Assembly (NCBI GenBank): GCA_017860395.1
Contig: JAGDMC010000024.1
Location: 1-18,593 of the forward strand
Direction: 5' to 3'
From: Bacteroidota bacterium
GTDB taxonomy: Bacteria; Bacteroidota; Bacteroidia; Bacteroidales; UBA932
Length of the DNA stretch: 18,593 bases
The translations under genes and the position numbers were made by a program. Below the pieces are notes generated by a model. It saw nothing but the letters and a program-made list of their open reading frames with translations. It ran no database searches and was not told the origin of the DNA. Positions 139 through 18,593 of the stretch are shown in pieces; position 1 is the stretch's first letter; each line of letters opens with the position of its first letter.

Positions 139-3100
139 ATGAAAAAAATCTTTCTTGGTATTATTACGCTACTCCTGGTAGCCGGGAATGTTCTCTATTC
201 TCAGAACATTCGAGTATCTGGAACGGTCACTGAAAAGGGGACCGGTGCAAATCTTTCTTTTGTTGGGGTTCAGCTTAAGGGTACAACAACAGGAGCATCA
301 ACTCTTGAAAACGGATCATACTTGATTAACGCTCCCGCCAACGGAACTCTCATTTTTAGTTTTATCGGGTATAAGACTATTGAAATTCCTATTGAAAACA
401 AAACAACAATAAATGTTCAACTGGAAACAGATGCTCTGCTTCTTGATGAAGTAGTAATGGTTGCTTATGGTACAGCAAAAAAAGAGTCCCTCACCGGAGC
501 AGTCTCTTCTGTAAACACAAAGGATATTGAAAAAAGGCCATTGTCCAGTGTGTCAAGCGTACTTGAGGGTCAGGCTGCGGGTGTTCAGGTAAATAACACA
601 TATGGAGAACCCGGCAGTGACGCAATAATCAGCATTCGCGGTTTTACTTCAATAAACGGAACTAATACTCCTTTGTATGTTTTAGATGGAGTTCCTTTTG
701 GCGGAAATATCTCCGATCTCAATCCAAATGATATCGAGAGCATTTCTGTGCTTAAAGATGCTGCATCTTCGGCTCTTTTCGGAAACAGAGCATCTAACGG
801 TGTTGTGCTGATAACAACCAAAAGAGGTAAAAACGAAAAAACAAGCGTTAGGGCAAATATCAACCAGGGTGTCTACAACAGGGGCATCAAGGAATATGAC
901 AGGCTTAACTCAAACGAATTTATGGAGGTTATGTGGAAGGGTAACAGAAATAACCTTATGACAACCCGTCCGGCGAGCTTCCCTACTTATGAATTGGCCA
1001 ATGCTGAGGCAACAAGAACGCTTATACCTACATATTTAAAATATAATATTTATAACCAGCCGGATGCATCTCTTTTTGACGCAAATGGCAAACTTGTTGC
1101 CGGAGCTCAGATTAGAGAAGGTTTTGACGACCTTGACTGGTTCAAATATATCGAGAGACTAGGTTACAGGCAGGACTACACAATCAGTGGCGATGCTGTA
1201 ACAGATAAGAGCAGTTATTTCTTTTCTGCCGGTTACCTGGACGAAAAAGGATATCTGCAATCATCGGATTATAACCGTTTTACAGGAAGAACAAACATCA
1301 CAGTAACTCCAAAAAAATGGTTCAAAGCAGGTTTTTCTCTTTCCGGATCTCATCAGGTTTCAAATAATTCAGCCGGAGATCCGGCAGATCCGACAAAATT
1401 TATTAACCCATTCTATTTTGCAAGAAATATGGCTCCAATATATCCTGTATATCTGCATAATATGACAACAGGCGAATATATTCTGGATTATGCAGGTAAA
1501 AAACAATATGACAATGGCGGAGCCAATTCAAGACCGCAAAACATAGACAGACATATTGTATGGGAGACAGAAAAGGATATGGACAGAACATATCGTAATA
1601 CAATGGCCAGCCAGGCTTTTGCTGACATTAGTTTTCTGAAGGATTTTAAATTTACTGTAAAAGGAGACATCAGCCTTCGAAACAGCGAGCGCCAAAGATA
1701 TAACAACGCGACTATCGGAGACGGTGCCGGCAACAAGGGCCGTGCAGGAAGAACTCTATACAGATACAAGAACTATACATTTCAACAACAATTGACATGG
1801 AACAAGGAATTCAATAAACACAATGTCGATTTCTTAGCCGGCCACGAAAATTTCAGCGATAATTACTCTTATTCATATGGCTATAAGACAAACGAAACAT
1901 TCGAAGGTGGCCCTGAACTAATAAACTTTACAGAGATAACAAGCCTTACAGGGTATCAGGTTGATTACAGAAATGAGAGCTATCTTACAAGAGCAAGATA
2001 CAACTATGATAACAAATATTATCTGGAAGGATCTTTTCGTCGTGATGGATCTTCAAAATTCCATAGTGATTACAGATGGGGTAATTTCTGGTCATTGGGC
2101 GGCAGTTGGTCAATCTCAAAAGAACCATTCATGGCAGGTGTGAAAAATGTTATAAGTTCATTAAAACTAAGAGCATCTTACGGAGAAGTAGGTAATGATG
2201 GAGGTGTTGGTAACTATGGGTATATGGCTCTGTATTCAATGGATCAAAATGCAAATAAAGGTGCTGCTTACAAAATGCAGAACAGTGCTTTTGATATTAA
2301 ATGGGAGACATCCAGCTCCTTTGGAGCCGCGTTAGAGGGTTCGCTTTTTGACAGAATAAATTTCAGCGTTGAGTATTTCGATAAAAGGTCTCAGGATTTG
2401 TTGTTTGACATTAACCTGGCTCTTTCTACGGGCGCAACCTCTACATCGGATGCAGTAGCTACAATAACAAAGAATCTCGGCTCCATTGCCAACAAGGGTG
2501 TAGAATTTGTTTTTGACGCAGATCTTATTAGAAAAGATAATCTAAGATGGAATTTAGGGTTCAATACTACCTACCTGAAAAATAAAATCATTTCATTACC
2601 TGAGCAAAACAGGGCAAATGGGATTATTTCAGGAACAAAAAGATATTTAGAGGGTCATGGAATTTATGATTTCTGGATGTACCAGTTTGCCGGGGTCGAT
2701 CAGATGACCGGTAAATCGCTTTATCAGCCGGATCTTGATAAGTATTACATTGGAACACCTGTTGAAGGCAAAACAGCATTCCCTTCACAATATCTGGTTC
2801 AGATAGGAGACAAAAATTATTCAACATATACAACATATGCAAAGAAAGACTGGAGCGGAAGTGCAATGCCGGATCTTTTTGGAAGTTTCTCGACTAAGCT
2901 TACTTATAAAAGCTTTGATTTGTCTATGCTGTTTACCTATTCTATTGGAGGGAAAACCCTTGACAACTCGTATATGAGCCTTATGAGCGCAACAGCAAAT
3001 CCCAGCTCTCTTCACAAAGACCTTCTTAAATCATGGGACGGAGTACCGGCCGGCATGACAGAAACCTCGGCTAACCGTGTGCTTGAAAACGGAATACCCG

Positions 3101-3405
3101 CAATTAACTATGAACAAAGCACATATAACAATGCCGTATCTTCAAGGTTCCTCATAGATGCTTCATACCTTGTTGTTAAGAATATCTCTCTCAGTTATAC
3201 ACTTCCAAGTCGGTTAGTTAACAAATTTGATTTGAGCGGGTTCTCAATTAGTGCATCTGTTGATAATCTTGCAACATTTACAAAATTACAAGGGATGAAC
3301 CCTCAGCAATCTTTTACCGGTATTAATCAATCTTTTACCGGTATTAATGATAACGGTTTTGTTACAGCAAGGGTGTTCTCAATTGGGTTGAATATTAAAC
3401 TATAA
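139..3405 (+). CDS. susC: SusC/RagA-family TonB-dependent outer-membrane transporter
   Basis: This is the beta-barrel channel of a SusCD nutrient importer. It would take up an unknown glycan or peptide across the outer membrane using TonB-ExbBD energy. A signal peptide covers residues 1-21 (LLLVAGNVLYS, then Q). A carboxypeptidase-regulatory-like domain follows (about 24-98), then a TonB-box-like stretch (LDEVVMVAYG, 102-111), a plug domain (about 113-230, with YVLDGVPFGG and ISVLKDAASSALFG), and a barrel running to the C-terminus. The length of 1088 residues is usual for the family. There is no N-terminal STN extension, so sigma/anti-sigma signalling through this receptor is unlikely. A perfect 21-bp tandem duplication adds seven residues (QSFTGIN twice, 1057-1070) near the C-terminus. 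susD follows after 19 bases, so the two are surely co-transcribed. The substrate cannot be inferred. Confidence 0.95.
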   Translation: MKKIFLGIITLLLVAGNVLYSQNIRVSGTVTEKGTGANLSFVGVQLKGTTTGASTLENGSYLINAPANGTLIFSFIGYKTIEIPIENKTTINVQLETDALLLDEVVMVAYGTAKKESLTGAVSSVNTKDIEKRPLSSVSSVLEGQAAGVQVNNTYGEPGSDAIISIRGFTSINGTNTPLYVLDGVPFGGNISDLNPNDIESISVLKDAASSALFGNRASNGVVLITTKRGKNEKTSVRANINQGVYNRGIKEYDRLNSNEFMEVMWKGNRNNLMTTRPASFPTYELANAEATRTLIPTYLKYNIYNQPDASLFDANGKLVAGAQIREGFDDLDWFKYIERLGYRQDYTISGDAVTDKSSYFFSAGYLDEKGYLQSSDYNRFTGRTNITVTPKKWFKAGFSLSGSHQVSNNSAGDPADPTKFINPFYFARNMAPIYPVYLHNMTTGEYILDYAGKKQYDNGGANSRPQNIDRHIVWETEKDMDRTYRNTMASQAFADISFLKDFKFTVKGDISLRNSERQRYNNATIGDGAGNKGRAGRTLYRYKNYTFQQQLTWNKEFNKHNVDFLAGHENFSDNYSYSYGYKTNETFEGGPELINFTEITSLTGYQVDYRNESYLTRARYNYDNKYYLEGSFRRDGSSKFHSDYRWGNFWSLGGSWSISKEPFMAGVKNVISSLKLRASYGEVGNDGGVGNYGYMALYSMDQNANKGAAYKMQNSAFDIKWETSSSFGAALEGSLFDRINFSVEYFDKRSQDLLFDINLALSTGATSTSDAVATITKNLGSIANKGVEFVFDADLIRKDNLRWNLGFNTTYLKNKIISLPEQNRANGIISGTKRYLEGHGIYDFWMYQFAGVDQMTGKSLYQPDLDKYYIGTPVEGKTAFPSQYLVQIGDKNYSTYTTYAKKDWSGSAMPDLFGSFSTKLTYKSFDLSMLFTYSIGGKTLDNSYMSLMSATANPSSLHKDLLKSWDGVPAGMTETSANRVLENGIPAINYEQSTYNNAVSSRFLIDASYLVVKNISLSYTLPSRLVNKFDLSGFSISASVDNLATFTKLQGMNPQQSFTGINQSFTGINDNGFVTARVFSIGLNIKL
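3307..3348 (+). repeat. Perfect 21-bp in-frame tandem duplication inside susC
   Basis: The unit at 3307-3327 is repeated exactly at 3328-3348. It encodes QSFTGIN twice, just before the last barrel strands. SusC proteins usually show a single such segment (NPQQSFTG followed by N), so one copy looks like an added unit. Identity at every base suggests recent replication slippage, and the seven-codon length keeps the frame open. Confidence 0.95.
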
Positions 3406-3424
3406 TTATTTAAAATATTTAGTG

Positions 3425-4957
3425 ATGATAACTATTAAGAAAATAACATATTTACTGGTAGGGATAATTCTCCTTTCCTCTTGTTCAAAGGACTATTTAA
3501 GTACGAAGCCATCCTCTTCAACCGCAACATCAACAATTTTTGAAACTACGAAGAATGCTGCACTGGCTATAAATGGCATCAATGCGCTTATGACGACTCA
3601 ATTGCTTGGAACACAGGGTTTCAATGGAGAGGGCACAATAAAATTGTATTATGGAATCTATCCTGGAAATAACACTTCCATTAATCTTCCTGGTTGGGCA
3701 TCAATAATAAACGGCACATTCAGAGAGAATGTTTCAAGCATATACCTTTATTATCCATGGTATTACTACTATATGTTAATAGGAAATGCAAATGCAATTA
3801 TTACCAACATAGACAATGCAACAGGTCCGGATTCTGAAAAACAGTTTATCAAGGCACAGGCACTCACGTTCCGGGCATATAGCTACTTTATGTTATCTCA
3901 AATTTACTGCAACAGATGGAAGGATTCCAATAACGGAGCTTCTGCCGGCCTTGTTCTGAGAACAGATACGTCAACTGATGAAATGCCATTATCCACTCTT
4001 AAGGAAACATACGAAAGAGTCTACAAAGATCTTGACGATGCAATTGCTCTTTATGCTCAGTCGGGCAAAAGCCGCAATAATAACTACGATCCGGATAAGA
4101 ATGTGGCTTATGCAATATATGCAAGGGCTGCAATTACCAGGGCAGATTATGCAAAAGCTTCTGCAATGGCGGTAAATGCGCGTGAAGGTTATCCGCTGAT
4201 GTCAAATAACGATTACAAATCGGGATTTAACACGCCTAACAATGAGTGGATATGGAGCAGTTACGGTGCTGCAGATGAAACTCTTTATTACTATTCTTAC
4301 TTTGCATATATGGCATATAATGGTAACGGAAGCGCAGTAAGATCAACTCCAAAATGCATAACCAAGGAGCTGTTTAATAAAATTCCGAATGGTGACATCA
4401 GAAAATCACTTTTCCTTGACCCAACCGGATACACTTATACAACTTCAACCGGTCAGGCGGCTTCGACCTCTGCTTTGGCTGCAAAAGCGCGTTTAATGTT
4501 TCCGGATATATATCCGACAGCAACGATTTATGCATATATGCAATTTAAAGTTTCTGCAACAGATTTACCGGGTGTAGGTAATCTAAATCACTTCCGTTCT
4601 TCTGAGATGTACCTTATCGAGGCTGAGGCGAAGTATTTCCTGAATGATGTAACAGGAGCGCAAGACGCTTTGATTGCGTTGAATAAAAATAGCGGCCGTA
4701 ATCCGGTTTATACCTGTACAGCTACAGGAACAAATTTATTGGAAGAAATAAAACTTTACCGGTCAATTGAGCTTTGGGGCGAAGGTTTTGACTGGTTTGA
4801 CCTTAAGAGATGGGGAGACAATGTAACTCGCACAAGTACAGCAAATGGCGGTAGCTTTATCCCTTCTCTTGCAATAAATGCAGGGCCATCAGAAGGAAAC
4901 AACTGGACATGGAAAATCCCATTGAGAGAGACTGACTATAACTCGGCTCTTCAATAG
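3425..4957 (+). CDS. susD: SusD/RagB-family outer-membrane lipoprotein
   Basis: This is the surface lid of the SusCD complex, which captures the substrate and closes over the SusC barrel. A lipoprotein signal ends in the lipobox LLSSC, with the acylated Cys at residue 20. The following SKDYLSTKP is typical of SusD and resembles the Bacteroidetes surface-export signal. The C-terminal family signature ELWGEGFDWFDLKRWG is at residues 449-464, and the end W-IPLRETDYN is also typical. The length is 510 residues. A GTG at 3422 would add one residue; I chose the ATG at 3425 because it begins the normal basic signal-peptide start. The gene lies 19 bases after susC and is followed by a strong terminator. 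No glycoside hydrolase, protease or sulfatase follows, so the substrate stays unknown. Confidence 0.94.
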   Translation: MITIKKITYLLVGIILLSSCSKDYLSTKPSSSTATSTIFETTKNAALAINGINALMTTQLLGTQGFNGEGTIKLYYGIYPGNNTSINLPGWASIINGTFRENVSSIYLYYPWYYYYMLIGNANAIITNIDNATGPDSEKQFIKAQALTFRAYSYFMLSQIYCNRWKDSNNGASAGLVLRTDTSTDEMPLSTLKETYERVYKDLDDAIALYAQSGKSRNNNYDPDKNVAYAIYARAAITRADYAKASAMAVNAREGYPLMSNNDYKSGFNTPNNEWIWSSYGAADETLYYYSYFAYMAYNGNGSAVRSTPKCITKELFNKIPNGDIRKSLFLDPTGYTYTTSTGQAASTSALAAKARLMFPDIYPTATIYAYMQFKVSATDLPGVGNLNHFRSSEMYLIEAEAKYFLNDVTGAQDALIALNKNSGRNPVYTCTATGTNLLEEIKLYRSIELWGEGFDWFDLKRWGDNVTRTSTANGGSFIPSLAINAGPSEGNNWTWKIPLRETDYNSALQ

Positions 4958-10343: not shown

Positions 10344-12491
10344 CTATTTAGCAATAGTCATCTCTTTCAGCAAATATCCTGCGCCGCCGAATTTGTCCAT
10401 AATGAACAATGTGTAGCGTATGTCAACGCTGATTGTGCGCTGGAGTGAAGGTTCGAAAATGATGTCACCGCTCATTGCTTCCCAGTTTCCGTCAAAGGCA
10501 GTTCCAATCAGTTCGCCTTTGGCATTGAGAACAGGGCTTCCTGAATTACCGCCCGTAATGTCGTTGTTGGTAAGGAATGCAACAGGCATTTCACCGTTTT
10601 TCATTGCATACTGGCCATAATCCTTTGCCTTGTAAAGCTCTTTGAGTTTTGCAGGGACAACGAATTCCCAGTTGTTTGGGTCTTCTTTTTCCATAACACC
10701 TTTAAGAGTCGTTACGTGTTCGAACAAAACTGCATCTTTCGGAGAGTAGTTAAGGACTTGTCCGTAGCTGAGTCTCATTGTTGAATTCGCATCCGGATAC
10801 ATTGCCTGTCCCTTTTTCATTTCAAGCAAACCTGCGATATAGGCTTTCTGACCTTTGGCAAGAGTAGTACCAACGGCCTGTAATTCTCCGAAAGTTTTTC
10901 CCATAACCACGTTGATTGATTTTGCAGCAGCAAGTGCAGGATCGGAAAGGAGAGCATCGATGTTGCCATTCAGGGCAGCCTTAAACTTCTCCTGAGAAAC
11001 GAAAACAGATTTTTCGAAAATGAAGTCGACATAAGCGTCGATATTTCCTCCGAACTGGGTATCTATTGTTTTAAATACATCCGGACGATCAGCCGCTTTC
11101 ACCTTGTCGCGATACACATTAAGAAGGGCTTTTGCCACCTTTTTGTCTGTTGCAGGAGAATAATCCTTGTAGAAAGATTCAGTTCTCCTCTGCGCCATTG
11201 CAAGAGTTTGTTTGGCTCTGTCTGTTTCGCCTTTGGAAATAGCATCGGCATAGGCCACGAAAGCACTTGCCACTGAGAATACCTCAATATTGTTCAGTGC
11301 TTCGCGTGTGTACGAGCTGAGGGTTAGTGCCTCTGCTCTTTTTGCGATAGATGAGTTGATATCGTTGAGGGCGGTTCCGTATTTTTCAATGCGGGCCTTG
11401 TCTTCGTTAACCCATTTGGTGAAAGTTCTCTCTTCTTCTGCACGACGCTCCTGAACTCCAAGTTTTGCAAAAGTTTCGTTCATGCCAATAGCCTTTTTCC
11501 AGAAGTTTGAAGATCCCGAATATTTGCTCGCATACTGAAGACGAATCTTAGGGTCGGCAACCATATCTTTCATAAGCACATCCTGACGGATACCTCTTAC
11601 GTAGATTGAGATGGAATTGGTTATATCGCTCATCTCCTTAACCTCGGCAGAAGTCATAAAACGGTTTGTTCTTCCGGGATAACCGATAATCATGGCAAAA
11701 TCTTTTTGCTCAACACCTTTTAAAGAGATTGTAAGATGTTTTTTAGGCTGATATGGTATGTTGTCCTTTGAGTAATCGGCAGGGTTATTGTCTTTATCTG
11801 CATACACGCGGAACATTGAAAAGTCGCCGGTGTGGCGTGGCCACATCCAGTTGTCGGTATCAGCTCCGAATTTGCCGATTGATGAAGGGGGAGCTCCTAC
11901 AAAACGGATATCGGTGTAGGTTTTTGTAATCATCATTAAGTATGTGTTTCCGCCAAAAAATGAAGCAACTCTTCCTTTAAGGAATTTATTGCCGGCAATT
12001 GCCTTAGCTATGAGTTCATCTGATACAGCAGCAAGTGCTTTTGCACTTTCTTCCGGAGTGGTTGCTTTTGCAACTGCATTTTCCACATCTTTGGTCACAT
12101 CAATTATGTTCTCAAGGAATGTAACCGTGAGTCCCGGAGAAGGAAGCTCCTGTTCGCGGTTCATTGCCCAATAGCCATCCTGAAGATAATCGTGCTCGAC
12201 AGTGCTGAGTTTTTGGATAGAACCATAACCGCAATGGTGGTTTGTAAGTAAAAGACCCTCCCTGGAGATTATTTCTCCTGTACAGCCACCGCCAAAGCTT
12301 ATTACGGCATCTTTGAGGCTGGAGTTGTTTATGTCGTATATATCTTTAGCAGTGAGCTTAAAGCCAAGTTCCGACATTTTCTTGCTGTTTAACTTCTCTA
12401 TCAGCGGCAGAAGCCACATGCCTTCATCCCCTCTGAGCGGGCTAAAAGAGAGGAGTATAGCGCCCAAAATTAAAAGACTGATTTTTTTCAT
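10344..12491 (-). CDS. Family S46 dipeptidyl peptidase, DPP7-like
   Basis: This is a secreted periplasmic serine exopeptidase that removes dipeptides from the N-terminus of oligopeptides, feeding peptide nutrition in asaccharolytic and gut Bacteroidales. The signal peptide is residues 1-20 or so, with the mature chain near DEGMWLLPL. The chymotrypsin-like triad is the His of TNHHCGYG (H85 or H86), probably D223 in RHTGDFSMF, and S650 in GGNSGSPVLN. The large helical lid domain lies between (about 250-560). The length of 715 residues fits. Eighteen residues after the catalytic Ser is Gly668 (AFDGNW). Porphyromonas DPP11, specific for Asp/Glu, has Arg at this place, while DPP7, which prefers hydrophobic residues, has Gly. 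That supports DPP7-like specificity, by inference. It is transcribed from 12537 and ends at its own terminator. Confidence 0.93.
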   Translation of the reverse strand: MKKISLLILGAILLSFSPLRGDEGMWLLPLIEKLNSKKMSELGFKLTAKDIYDINNSSLKDAVISFGGGCTGEIISREGLLLTNHHCGYGSIQKLSTVEHDYLQDGYWAMNREQELPSPGLTVTFLENIIDVTKDVENAVAKATTPEESAKALAAVSDELIAKAIAGNKFLKGRVASFFGGNTYLMMITKTYTDIRFVGAPPSSIGKFGADTDNWMWPRHTGDFSMFRVYADKDNNPADYSKDNIPYQPKKHLTISLKGVEQKDFAMIIGYPGRTNRFMTSAEVKEMSDITNSISIYVRGIRQDVLMKDMVADPKIRLQYASKYSGSSNFWKKAIGMNETFAKLGVQERRAEEERTFTKWVNEDKARIEKYGTALNDINSSIAKRAEALTLSSYTREALNNIEVFSVASAFVAYADAISKGETDRAKQTLAMAQRRTESFYKDYSPATDKKVAKALLNVYRDKVKAADRPDVFKTIDTQFGGNIDAYVDFIFEKSVFVSQEKFKAALNGNIDALLSDPALAAAKSINVVMGKTFGELQAVGTTLAKGQKAYIAGLLEMKKGQAMYPDANSTMRLSYGQVLNYSPKDAVLFEHVTTLKGVMEKEDPNNWEFVVPAKLKELYKAKDYGQYAMKNGEMPVAFLTNNDITGGNSGSPVLNAKGELIGTAFDGNWEAMSGDIIFEPSLQRTISVDIRYTLFIMDKFGGAGYLLKEMTIAK

Positions 12492-14173: not shown

Positions 14174-14668
14174 GTGAACAGAGCCGCTTTTGAAAAAGAG
14201 GTAATAAACAATCAGGAACCGCTGCGGCGGTTCCTTTTAAACCTTTGTGGCGGCGATAGTGCTTTGAGTGACGATATAGCTCAGGAGGCATTTATTAAAG
14301 CCTACCTGAATATCAATTCATTCAACGGATTGTCGAAATTTTCAACCTGGCTCTTCCGGATAGCGTATAACTGTTATTGCGACAACAAAAGAGCTTCTCA
14401 GAGATTCTCTACTGTTGAGATAAACGACAGAGTTCATATGGCAGGTGAGAGTTCCGATTCCAGATATAAAAACCAGGAACTATATATGGCTCTGGCACAA
14501 CTGGGAGAGAAGGAGAGATCGGCAATTCTGCTCTTTTACATGGAAGATAAAAGTATAAAAGAGATATCAACAATAACTGGAACACCGGAGAACACGATAA
14601 AGTCTCACCTTTCCAGAGCCCGTTTAAATTTGTCAAACCATCTAAAAACTATCGGTTATGAAAGATGA
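14174..14668 (+). CDS. ECF-type RNA polymerase sigma factor
   Basis: This is an alternative sigma factor directing RNA polymerase to a dedicated set of promoters. Region 2 is at about 10-75 (LSDDIAQEAFIKAYLNINSF, then FSTWLFRIAYNCYCDNKR). Region 4 is at about 104-158 (LGEKERSAILLFYMEDKSIKEIS, then GTPENTIKSHLSRARLNL). The length of 164 residues is typical. The start codon is GTG at 14174, two bases after the previous stop, which suggests termination-reinitiation coupling. Its last 11 bases overlap the next gene, a candidate anti-sigma factor. There is no FecR-like gene, so this is not the SusC-linked ECF type. Target promoters are unknown. Confidence 0.93.
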   Translation: MNRAAFEKEVINNQEPLRRFLLNLCGGDSALSDDIAQEAFIKAYLNINSFNGLSKFSTWLFRIAYNCYCDNKRASQRFSTVEINDRVHMAGESSDSRYKNQELYMALAQLGEKERSAILLFYMEDKSIKEISTITGTPENTIKSHLSRARLNLSNHLKTIGYER

Positions 14669-15648: not shown

Positions 15649-16050
15649 TCAATATTTTGAAATTTTATCCTTTAAAATTCCAATAAGAGTATTTTTACTT
15701 TCGATAGATGCTTTATACTCACTATTCGCACAGTCAATTTCTGCCTTGAGCAGTTCTCTCTGCATTTCCGATTCTGAAAGTAATTTTTGAAGGCTCTCTA
15801 TGCGGGAGTCTTTTTCAGCAATCTGGTCAAGAAAACTTTGGGATAGATTTTCGAAAAGCAGGTTCTCCGCCGGAATATTCAAAACTCTTGATATATCATT
15901 GAGACGCGGATTGATGAGGGCAGTCTTTCCTCCCTCTATTTTTCTGTATCCATTGAGTGAAATTCCCAGAATCTGGGCCATATATTCCTGAGAATACCCC
16001 AGATCTCGTCTTCTTTTTCGAATGGTTTCCCTTATCCTGTCTGTATTCAT
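15649..16050 (-). CDS. XRE-type helix-turn-helix regulator with coiled-coil tail
   Basis: This 133-residue DNA-binding protein carries an N-terminal HTH_3 domain (about 3-62: IRKRRRDLGYSQEYMAQILGI, then SLNGYRKIEGGKT, then RVLNIPAENLLF). A long charged helix follows (about 68-130, QSFLDQIAEKDSRIESLQKL), which probably forms a dimeric coiled coil. The domain order suggests a small transcription regulator, and its targets are unknown. An upstream ATG at 16113 would add 21 residues. I prefer the ATG at 16050 because it begins the HTH fold normally and because the promoter box at 16056-16063 lies inside the upstream extension. rnhB follows after 34 bases. An AraC-like gene is divergent, with 148 bases between them. 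Confidence 0.85.
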   Translation of the reverse strand: MNTDRIRETIRKRRRDLGYSQEYMAQILGISLNGYRKIEGGKTALINPRLNDISRVLNIPAENLLFENLSQSFLDQIAEKDSRIESLQKLLSESEMQRELLKAEIDCANSEYKASIESKNTLIGILKDKISKY

Positions 16051-16055
16051 CAACA

Positions 16056-16063
16056 CAAATATA
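16056..16063 (-). promoter_or_regulatory. XRE regulator promoter, -7 box TATATTTG
   Basis: TATATTTG on the minus strand is an exact TAnnTTTG match, only five bases upstream of the ATG at 16050. Transcription would begin at or within a few bases of the start codon, so the mRNA would be leaderless or nearly so. Confidence 0.5.
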
Positions 16064-16198
16064 AGCCTAAGTTCACTTGAGTATGGGCAATCAGAAGTAG
16101 CTACAATGCACACAAAAAGTATGGATATGTTTTAAAATAAAATATAGTATTGTCAAAATAAAATTTAGAAATGGATAAATCGACACAATGAGTGTATT

Positions 16199-16531
16199 AT
16201 GAGTCAAAAGAGACATTATTTTTGCAAAAAAAAGATGAGAAAGGATTTTTTGGAATTTATTTATCTGTTGCTGGAAGAGAAGAAGCTTTTCCTTAATCCG
16301 GAATTCAACCGATATGATATTTGTTCGTTTTTTTGCAATGGAGTATTTCCCGGAGAAAAAATTGTCTTTGAAGAGTACGGATGTTCCGTTGATACTCTTA
16401 TTTCCCTCTTTCGGGTGCAGCATGCTAGAAAGCTGCTGCAAGAGGGCTTTTGCTACGAAAATGTATGGAAATACAGCGGATTCAAATCAAAAAGGGTTAT
16501 GATCAAAGCTATTTACCGTGTTGTTGTATGA
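16199..16531 (+). CDS. Stand-alone AraC-type DNA-binding protein
   Basis: This 110-residue protein appears to be only the two-HTH DNA-binding domain of the AraC family, without a sensor domain. KLFLNPEFNRYDICSFF (29-45) matches the opening of AraC domains in Bacteroidota sensor-regulators (usually LFLNPxLT). VDTLISLFRVQHARKLLQEG (64-83) matches the linker helix, usually NDYINxYRIxxAxxLL. YENVWKYSGFKSKRVMIKAIYRV (86-108) matches the second HTH. The first HTH is divergent and rich in Cys and Phe (ICSFFCNGVFPGEK), so DNA contact there is doubtful. The DNA is more AT-rich than that of its neighbours. Start is the ATG at 16199, with the ATG at 16235 as an alternative. It lies 68 bases before the EF-G2-like gene, so it may control that gene, itself or the divergent XRE gene. 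Confidence 0.72.
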   Translation: MSQKRHYFCKKKMRKDFLEFIYLLLEEKKLFLNPEFNRYDICSFFCNGVFPGEKIVFEEYGCSVDTLISLFRVQHARKLLQEGFCYENVWKYSGFKSKRVMIKAIYRVVV

Positions 16532-16599: not shown

Positions 16600-18593
16600 A
16601 TGAAAGTTTATCCAACCCAAAACATTCGAAATATTGTCCTGCTTGGAGGCACGAAGTCCGGCAAAACAACGCTGGTAGAGACAATGATGTTTGAAGGCAA
16701 AGTAATTGATCGCCGGGGAACCGTTGAGGCGAAAACAACTGTCAGCGACAATGCCGAAATTGAACAAATTTATCAACGCTCAATTTATCCGACTCTGCTT
16801 TATACAGAGTTTATGGATAACAAACTTAATATAATTGATACTCCGGGTTCCGATGACTTCATCGGAGGAGTAATATCTGCCTTTAAGGTTGCAGATACTG
16901 GTGTAATGATTGTAAATGCGCAGCAGGGAGTTGAGGTGGGTACAGAAATCTTTGCGCGTTATGCCGAAAAATTTAAAAAACCGTTGATTCTGGCAATTAA
17001 TCAGCTCGATCACGAAAAAGCAAACTGGGATGCAGCTCTCGATTCTGTTAAACAGACTTTTGGAAAGAAAGTAGTTGTTATTCAATATCCTGTTGAAACA
17101 GGACCTAACTTCAAGTCTTTCATTGATGTTCTCAAAATGAAGATGTATGTCTTCAAAGACGATAACGGAACAAGAGAGGAGCATGAAATTCCTGCAGATC
17201 AAAAAGATCAGGCAAACGAACTGCATCAGATACTTGCAGAAGTTGCAGCAGAAAATGACGAGTCGCTCATGGAGCTCTTTTTTGACAAGGGAGTTCTCTC
17301 GGAAGAGGAAATCCGCGTAGGGCTCAGAATCGGACTTGCAAAATCTGAGGTTTTTCCACTTTTCTGCCTTTCAGGCAAAAAAGACATGGGTGTTAAGAGA
17401 CTTATGGAGTTCATAATAAATGTTGCTCCTGCTCCTGACAAAACAATACAGAAACTTAAGGACGGCACTTTGGTTCCTTGCGACTCTGCAGCACAGCCGT
17501 CAATTTTTATATACAAAACATCCGTTGAGCCCCACCTGGGCGACGTATCCTTCTTCAGGGTAATGTCGGGAAAAGTTGTTGAAGGTTGCGATCTTGTAAA
17601 TCCGGAAAACGGAGCAAAAGAGAGACTTACTGCAATTTATGCCGTAGCCGGTAAGAAAAAAGAAAAACTTACAGAAATGGTTGCCGGCGATATAGGATGT
17701 ACAGTTAAGCTTAAAACTGTTAAAACAAATCAGACTCTAAACGGAGGCAACAAAGAGTGGGTTTTCGAACCTATGGTTTTCCCTCCATCTAAATACAGAA
17801 CAGCAATTAAGGCCAAAGTTGAGAAAGACGAAGAGAAACTCGGAGAAATTCTTAACAAGGCACATGCCGAAGACCCTACAATTGTTATTGAGTATTCAAA
17901 AGAACTCAAACAAACAATCCTCAGCGGGCAGGGTGAGCACCACATCAACATTTTGAAATGGCACCTCACAAATACCCATAAAATTGAGGTAGATCTTTTC
18001 CCTCCTAAGATTCCATACAGGGAAACAATTACCAAAGTAGCTCTTGCAGATTATCGCCACAGAAAACAATCCGGCGGAGCAGGTCAGTTCGGAGAGGTTC
18101 ATATTCTCATCGAACCGGTTGTTGAAGGCGTTGCTGCAAACAACAGGTTTAAGGTCGAAGGCAAAGAGCTTGTTCTTAACCTTAAGAGCAAGGAAGAATA
18201 CAAAATGGACTGGGGTGGCAAGCTTGAATACTACAACTGTATTGTGGGCGGCGCTATTGATGCCCGTTTTATGCCGGCAATCCTTAAAGGTATAATGGAA
18301 AAGATGGAAGAGGGTCCTCTCACAGGTTCATACGCTCGTGATATCCGCGTATTCGTATATGACGGTAAGATGCACCCGGTTGACTCAAACGAAATCTCTT
18401 TCAAACTTGCAGGACGTAATGCATTCAAGGAGGCCTTCAAAAAAGCAGGTCCGAAAATTATGGAGCCAATTTACAATGTAGAGGTACTCGTACCAAGCGA
18501 TTGTATGGGAGACGTAATGAGCGACCTTCAGAACCGCAGGGCCATGATTGAAGGAATGAGCAGCGAAAAGGGATTTGAAGTTTTAAAAGCCAG
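16600..18593 (+). CDS. fusA2: EF-G paralog lacking the GTPase signature (EF-G2 type), 3' end cut by window
   Basis: This is a ribosomal translocation factor paralog; 664 residues are visible and about 50 are missing at the C-terminus. The overall EF-G architecture is present: G domain (1-270), domains II and III, domain IV with SGGAGQFGEV and VGGAIDARFMPAILKGI, and the start of domain V. The GTPase motifs are altered. The P-loop reads GGTKSGKTTL (16-25) where EF-G has AHIDAGKTTT. Switch I reads QRSIY (59-63) where EF-G has ERGIT. Switch II reads DTPGSDDF (80-87), with Ser84 in place of the catalytic His. G4 is NQLD (134-137). Domain IV has roughly 26 extra residues near 518-543. These traits match EF-G2 of Bacteroides thetaiotaomicron, reported to drive slow translocation without GTP hydrolysis during carbon starvation. 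Tetracycline-protection factors are an alternative, but they keep the catalytic His. Confidence 0.88.
   Translation, partial: MKVYPTQNIRNIVLLGGTKSGKTTLVETMMFEGKVIDRRGTVEAKTTVSDNAEIEQIYQRSIYPTLLYTEFMDNKLNIIDTPGSDDFIGGVISAFKVADTGVMIVNAQQGVEVGTEIFARYAEKFKKPLILAINQLDHEKANWDAALDSVKQTFGKKVVVIQYPVETGPNFKSFIDVLKMKMYVFKDDNGTREEHEIPADQKDQANELHQILAEVAAENDESLMELFFDKGVLSEEEIRVGLRIGLAKSEVFPLFCLSGKKDMGVKRLMEFIINVAPAPDKTIQKLKDGTLVPCDSAAQPSIFIYKTSVEPHLGDVSFFRVMSGKVVEGCDLVNPENGAKERLTAIYAVAGKKKEKLTEMVAGDIGCTVKLKTVKTNQTLNGGNKEWVFEPMVFPPSKYRTAIKAKVEKDEEKLGEILNKAHAEDPTIVIEYSKELKQTILSGQGEHHINILKWHLTNTHKIEVDLFPPKIPYRETITKVALADYRHRKQSGGAGQFGEVHILIEPVVEGVAANNRFKVEGKELVLNLKSKEEYKMDWGGKLEYYNCIVGGAIDARFMPAILKGIMEKMEEGPLTGSYARDIRVFVYDGKMHPVDSNEISFKLAGRNAFKEAFKKAGPKIMEPIYNVEVLVPSDCMGDVMSDLQNRRAMIEGMSSEKGFEVLKA

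Follow-up and report, generated by a model that had tools for sequence, protein, structure and literature searches.

An EF-G2 orthologue of a Bacteroidales genome: GTPase motif changes, a domain IV insertion and neighbouring regulator genes

The closest described system is EF-G2 of B. thetaiotaomicron, the fusA2 product BT2167 studied by Han et al. (EMBO J), in which a 26-residue region is reportedly credited with protein synthesis, with release and with the absence of GTPase activity. In the available excerpts of one account, B. thetaiotaomicron EF-G2 enables GTP-independent translation (PMC10294740), and in those of another, which cites the same B. thetaiotaomicron work, an EF-G paralogue translocates without GTP hydrolysis (PMC12775393). 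The wider EFG II subfamily is characterized, in the consulted parts of Margus et al. 2011 (PMC3150367), by loss of the switch I motif RGITI, whose Thr is a Mg2+ ligand, with Ser or Thr kept at its fourth position; the rule given there is Ser at this position, and the motif given for Bacteroidetes is YGYSV. Members of the subfamily are described in excerpts as differing in activity, since T. thermophilus EF-G-2 hydrolyses GTP (PMC3150367) in a ribosome-dependent manner (PMC3832671) whereas M. smegmatis EF-G2 is without ribosome-dependent GTPase (PMC3150367, PMC3832671). Expression of fusA2 in Bacteroides is driven by the regulator BT4338 (Cur) acting at a 22-bp site, according to the excerpted text of PMC6989115.

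The stretch of DNA analysed here (the window) is a whole contig of 18 593 nucleotides from an assembly of 1.77 Mb that is 73% complete. It opens with a SusC/SusD-like pair at 139-4957 (TonB plug and CarbopepD_reg_2 domains; SusD-like domains) and includes a Peptidase S46 family protein of 715 amino acids (10344-12491) and a 164-residue, ECF-sized protein with sigma-70 regions 2 and 4 (14174-14668). At its far end lies fusA2 (16600..18593, forward strand), with an ATG at 16600 and a frame that remains open to 18591, where both window and contig stop. The window thus holds residues 1-664 of about 717, an extent judged from the open reading frame, the family model and relatives of 717 residues. 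Because these relatives, at 98-99% identity, are full length, the loss of about 53 C-terminal residues reflects the end of the assembly and not a broken gene. An earlier note on this DNA had placed an EF-G2-type translocase at 16645..18228; that span does lie inside fusA2, although it covers residues 16-543 only and misses both the true start at 16600 and the continuation of the frame out of the window.

The family assignment in the earlier note held. EF-G domains are present in the Pfam search, and the protein scores 1104.6 bits against NF058620 (NCBIfam, elongation factor G2; cut-off 1000) despite its missing 53 residues, and 786.6 against the wider subfamily model NF009381 (cut-off 583), while it stays below every cut-off of the next four NCBIfam EF-G equivalogs. 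The marks of EFG II are found as well: RGITI is lost, the protein reading YQRSI with Ser61 at the fourth position, and Gly16 and Leu25 (1WDT numbering) are both present, matching T. thermophilus EF-G-2 (PDB 1wdt). Against the nearest relative (locus L021), gene-wide dN is 0.006 and dS 0.143, so that the sequence features of fusA2 are not due to chance. Judged by these matches, the window gene is a Bacteroidota EF-G2, the second EF-G of that group. It is an ordinary orthologue of a known family, to which the locus brings a modest evolutionary and regulatory addition.

The best solved relative is PDB 7uvp/8dmf, a chain of 718 residues whose residues 1-664 align with residues 1-663 of the window protein at 841 bits; the two are not identical in sequence, although they share the SDDF of switch II and the domain IV insertion. 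As this entry is labelled TetQ, we considered whether the window protein could be a TetQ-type ribosomal protection protein that confers tetracycline resistance. The NCBIfam scores refute such an identity (89.8 bits to tet_protect_Q, cut-off 1425; 216.6 to tet_protect, cut-off 775; 1104.6 to EFG2_Bacteroid, cut-off 1000) and leave it with next to no probability. With an EF-G2 switch II and insertion in the chain itself, and only 89.8 bits to Tet(Q) for the window protein, the label of 7uvp/8dmf looks mistaken. We have taken 7uvp as a Bacteroides EF-G2 and locus L028, on the strength of its 1384 bits to NF058620, as a Bacteroides-type one. The window protein carries Lys19 where both have Gly. 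By way of NF058620 and 7uvp, rather than the sequence of BT2167 itself, it resembles B. thetaiotaomicron EF-G2 in having Ser in place of the switch II His and an insertion in domain IV.

A further likeness to B. thetaiotaomicron is that a canonical fusA is also present. The second, canonical gene that the earlier note had proposed looking for elsewhere in the genome was located at C199:1101-3221, directly after an rpsG open reading frame. It encodes 706 residues scoring 1012.7 bits to TIGR00484 (cut-off 659.4) and only 447 to NF058620, below its cut-off of 1000, with the motifs AHIDAGKTT, RGITIT and DTPGHVDF intact. NF058620 matches above the cut-off were found in 37 of 41 genomes (the source genome, 24 of the same genus and 16 from other families of the order). 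In G003 the gene is present only as a fragment at a contig edge, in G032 it is split across two contigs, in G022 the match is partial (model positions 1-583), and G028, at 98% completeness, has the canonical EF-G type only. One fusA2 of the same genus (G016:C8:117154-119070) contains an in-frame TGA, its match to the model begins only at position 78, and it is either a broken gene or an assembly error. In three Bacteroidales families (G030:C5, G031:C30 and G037:C46), fusA2 and a canonical-type fusA are divergently oriented, with 1.1-1.3 kb between them.

To place the GTPase residues, we aligned 131 proteins (the window's, its own canonical EF-G and one per locus L008-L136), with E. coli EF-G added later. 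The P-loop of the window protein (16645..16671) reads GGTKSGKTT against AHIDAGKTT, which agrees with the earlier note both in placing Lys19 (16654-16656) at the Asp position and in finding GKTT kept. GKT is present in all 120 EF-G2-type rows with an aligned P-loop segment (122 rows in total); the other two, insertion-free and trimmed in the alignment through the choice of start, read GHGGSGKT when untrimmed. Switch II reads DTPGSDDF, with Ser84 (16849..16851) at the His position, again as first noted. No EF-G2-type protein in the alignment has this His (0/122, 26 of them without insertion), a count to be read with the choice of genomes in mind, as these were picked by NF058620 score among the matches listed and for family spread, and low-scoring His-bearing EF-G2s could have been missed. 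Asp, Thr and His occupy the three GTPase places in all nine aligned Bacteroidota canonical EF-Gs and in E. coli EF-G.

Switch I is where the earlier note went astray. It had put Tyr63 at the conserved Thr, and a lost Mg2+ ligand would follow; the alignment instead sets Ser61 of Ser61-Ile62-Tyr63 (16780..16788) at the Thr of RGITI, and Tyr63 at the second Thr (QERGITITS in its own canonical EF-G). Tyr63 as a lost ligand is thereby ruled out in favour of a conservative change, and the EF-G2-type proteins have Ser (116/122) or Thr (6/122) at this place. With the ligand position conservatively Ser, the nucleotide pocket is not wrecked; Asp80 and Gly83 of DxPG are moreover kept in 122 of 122. A further departure was seen in the G4 motif (16999..17010), which reads NQLD for the canonical NKxD.

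Domain IV is longer than in canonical EF-G, by 26 residues relative to E. coli and by 28 relative to the genome's own protein; between the anchors Pro506 and Asn546 there are 39 residues in the window protein, 13 in E. coli EF-G and 11 in its own EF-G. The earlier note was thus right on the size of the insertion, about 26 residues, but not on its place, which is about residues 511-538 (18130..18213) and not 518-543. Over the same anchor interval the EF-G2-type proteins fall into an insertion-free class with 10 residues (26/26), a short class with 30 (70/72; 31 and 32 once each) and a long class with 39 (23/24; 41 once). The insertion ends in Trp538, and this residue and Gly539 are invariant in all 96 aligned insertion-bearing proteins. 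By its size and place, the window insertion is likely to be the published 26-residue region.

Residue changes were then compared across the classes. The switch II His is replaced by Tyr (21), Phe (3) or Leu (2) in the 26 insertion-free rows; by Tyr (39), Phe (11), Thr (11), Leu (8), Pro (1), Ser (1) or Ala (1) in the 72 rows of the short, 19-residue class; and by Ser (16), Ala (4), Leu (3) or Met (1) in the 24 rows of the long, 28-30-residue class. Among the matches listed near the window protein, itself included, Ser stands at this place in 118 of 120, the searched motif being absent from the other two; among those listed near an insertion-free member, Tyr does so in 120 of 120. The NKxD Lys is retained in 26/26 insertion-free rows, in 32/72 of the 19-residue class and in 1/24 of the long class, with related rows counted together, and it changes six times on the tree. 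Its loss as an insertion-linked change was considered and dropped, as the tree offers just one independent pair, too few for any test.

Two residues of domain IV are kept. Gln490 (18067..18069) and His592 (18373..18375) align with Gln508 and His584 of E. coli EF-G (Met counted), presumably Gln507 and His583 of the domain IV tip in the usual numbering. The window protein thus shares both these residues and the EF-G domains with E. coli EF-G and its own canonical EF-G, but differs from them in the GTPase motifs, where these two have intact Asp, Thr, His and Lys. Gln490 and His592 are kept in 122/122 EF-G2-type proteins, which argues against a protein that acts mainly in ribosome recycling, dormancy or splitting and not in elongation. 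There is precedent for such a role, as EF-G paralogues are divided into translocation and recycling factors in Borrelia burgdorferi (excerpts of PMC3150367 and PMC3832671), but the studied orthologue is described, in the part consulted, as an alternative translation elongation factor (PMC10294740), and we regard a mainly non-elongation role as very unlikely.

The order in which these features arose was approached with a quick IQ-TREE phylogeny of 122 rows (113 EF-G2-type and nine canonical; SH-aLRT only), from which the insertion columns were excluded; nine same-genus rows are outside the tree and inside the residue counts. A branch with 100% support separates the EF-G2-type rows from the canonical ones, and the 28-residue class is one group (support 99). 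Insertion length changes twice, from 0 to 19 to 28, although the tree does not settle how the deepest insertion-free rows branch. When rooted on canonical EF-G, the tree suggests that the His was lost first, followed by a gain of 19 residues and then of nine more. Tyr is also found at the His place in T. thermophilus EF-G-2 (1wdt) and in another EF-G chain (9k0z), suggesting that the His was lost before Bacteroidota arose, barring repeated losses.

These observations bear on what the insertion is for. Since insertion-free relatives are already without the His, the insertion is probably not the original cause of GTPase loss, and an adaptation for release is the more likely role; even if the region does remove GTPase activity in B. 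thetaiotaomicron EF-G2 today, in the order found here the His had gone before the region existed. We had also asked whether having an insertion here is enough to indicate that GTPase activity is lost. That idea is weakened by canonical EF-Gs of family f40, chosen because their model match ran on unbroken (among the matches listed): in all five fetched (L123-L127), 23 residues lie between the domain IV anchors and Asp, Thr and His are intact. The other five aligned canonical EF-Gs have 11-13 residues there.

We put at about 0.75 the probability of the following explanation as a whole. EF-G2 would enter the ribosomal A site as EF-G does, perhaps nucleotide-bound, and binding of its domain IV would move tRNA and mRNA. 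It would then leave the ribosome without ribosome-triggered GTP hydrolysis, the domain IV insertion probably serving both function and release when hydrolysis is absent, and it may permit slow translation that spares GTP when nutrients are scarce, alongside the canonical EF-G of the genome. For the window protein, translocation without hydrolysis is a fair inference from orthology, but the residue changes do not establish it, because T. thermophilus EF-G-2, which is reported as a ribosome-dependent GTPase, has no switch II His either. Points against the explanation are that EFG II relatives differ in reported GTPase activity (GTP hydrolysis by T. thermophilus EF-G-2, no ribosome-dependent GTPase in M. 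smegmatis EF-G2), that the Mg2+ ligand position has a conservative Ser and leaves the pocket largely in order, and that the window protein is only 59% identical to L028.

Conversely, the window EF-G2 might still hydrolyse GTP on the ribosome despite its missing His, by means of an intact P-loop, Ser61 and DxPG. T. thermophilus EF-G-2 (PDB 1wdt/2dy1, 665 residues), which shares Gly16 and Leu25 with the window protein and has Tyr where the latter has Ser, is reported to do so in the excerpts of PMC3150367 and PMC3832671, and GKT, Ser61 and DxPG are all retained. However, the window protein belongs to the Bacteroidota EF-G2 family, whose studied member is reported, in the parts of PMC10294740 and PMC12775393 at hand, to work without GTP hydrolysis; it has an insertion, absent from 26 EF-G2-type proteins, and it has lost the NKxD Lys. 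We therefore consider retained hydrolysis unlikely and keep translocation without it as the preferred explanation.

Unlike the B. thetaiotaomicron system, fusA2 of the window has an XRE-type regulator gene and a small AraC-like frame as neighbours, both found by domain search and genus comparison. The XRE-type HTH gene (15649..16113, reverse strand) is divergent from fusA2. A search of 25 genomes of the genus at E <= 1e-5 gave 22 matches to its product, one per genome in 22, and all 22 are divergent and just upstream of fusA2, although one has an internal stop and two are short. Between the XRE gene and fusA2 lies the mini-AraC frame (16199..16531, forward strand), which encodes 110 residues with an HTH_18 match under the Pfam cut-off and ends 68 nt upstream of fusA2. 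It has 38 matches at E <= 0.01 in the same genomes. Eighteen of these (in 18 of 25 genomes) adjoin fusA2 in short frames, three with stops in the matched stretch; among the other 20, 19 are in frames of 369-403 residues, presumably ordinary AraC regulators, and one is in a 169-residue frame with a stop. Three of eight sequence pairs gave a usable dS, and in these the mini-AraC dN lies well under dS (0.022/0.338, 0.093/0.629 and 0.145/0.567), which suggests a genuine protein under constraint; four further pairs have dS above 1.5 and one has dS 0. The 126 upstream regions compared (that of the window and those of 125 loci) include 24 with mini-AraC and 26 with the XRE type, counts in which weak members are less sure, the profile having been iterated within the same regions, and some genomes perhaps enter twice (L022, L137). 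We hypothesize that the XRE and mini-AraC pair controls fusA2.

The Cur consensus was also searched for. Within 300 nt upstream of fusA2 the best site has five mismatches. With 700 nt scanned, a site with two mismatches, as close as the published B. thetaiotaomicron site, was found at 16126-16141, 474 nt upstream, in the interval that separates the XRE gene from the mini-AraC frame; 6 of 200 shuffles did equally well, and window-wide the number of Cur-like sites is not above chance. The site is not conserved in L021, the nearest relative, which has four mismatches there. Eleven other same-genus loci have three to five, L009, from another family of the order, has three, and L008, with just 24 nt upstream, is uninformative. 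The likely Bacteroides-type loci L028 and L029 themselves reach only four and three in this wider scan, which therefore has little power.

Taken in sequence, these features allow a tentative proposal, which we hold to be possible but somewhat doubtful, that EF-G2 was assembled in separable stages. A His-less EFG II ancestor, perhaps still hydrolysing GTP in another way, would have gained first a 19- and then a 28-residue insertion that enabled ribosome exit without hydrolysis, while the nucleotide pocket eroded (NKxD to NQxD); in the lineage of the window, expression would have come under the local divergent XRE and mini-AraC pair, replacing or adding to Cur. In the portions of the EF-G2 literature that were searched, we met neither a two-step insertion after His loss nor fusA2-linked regulators.

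EF-G2 bears on the question of whether GTP hydrolysis powers translocation or serves mainly the release of the factor. Natural relatives that are all without the His and have no insertion, a short one or a long one form a series for separating the removal of GTPase activity from release. The retention of the regulator pair next to fusA2 suggests, in addition, that the way in which EF-G2 is turned on may vary among Bacteroidales lineages.
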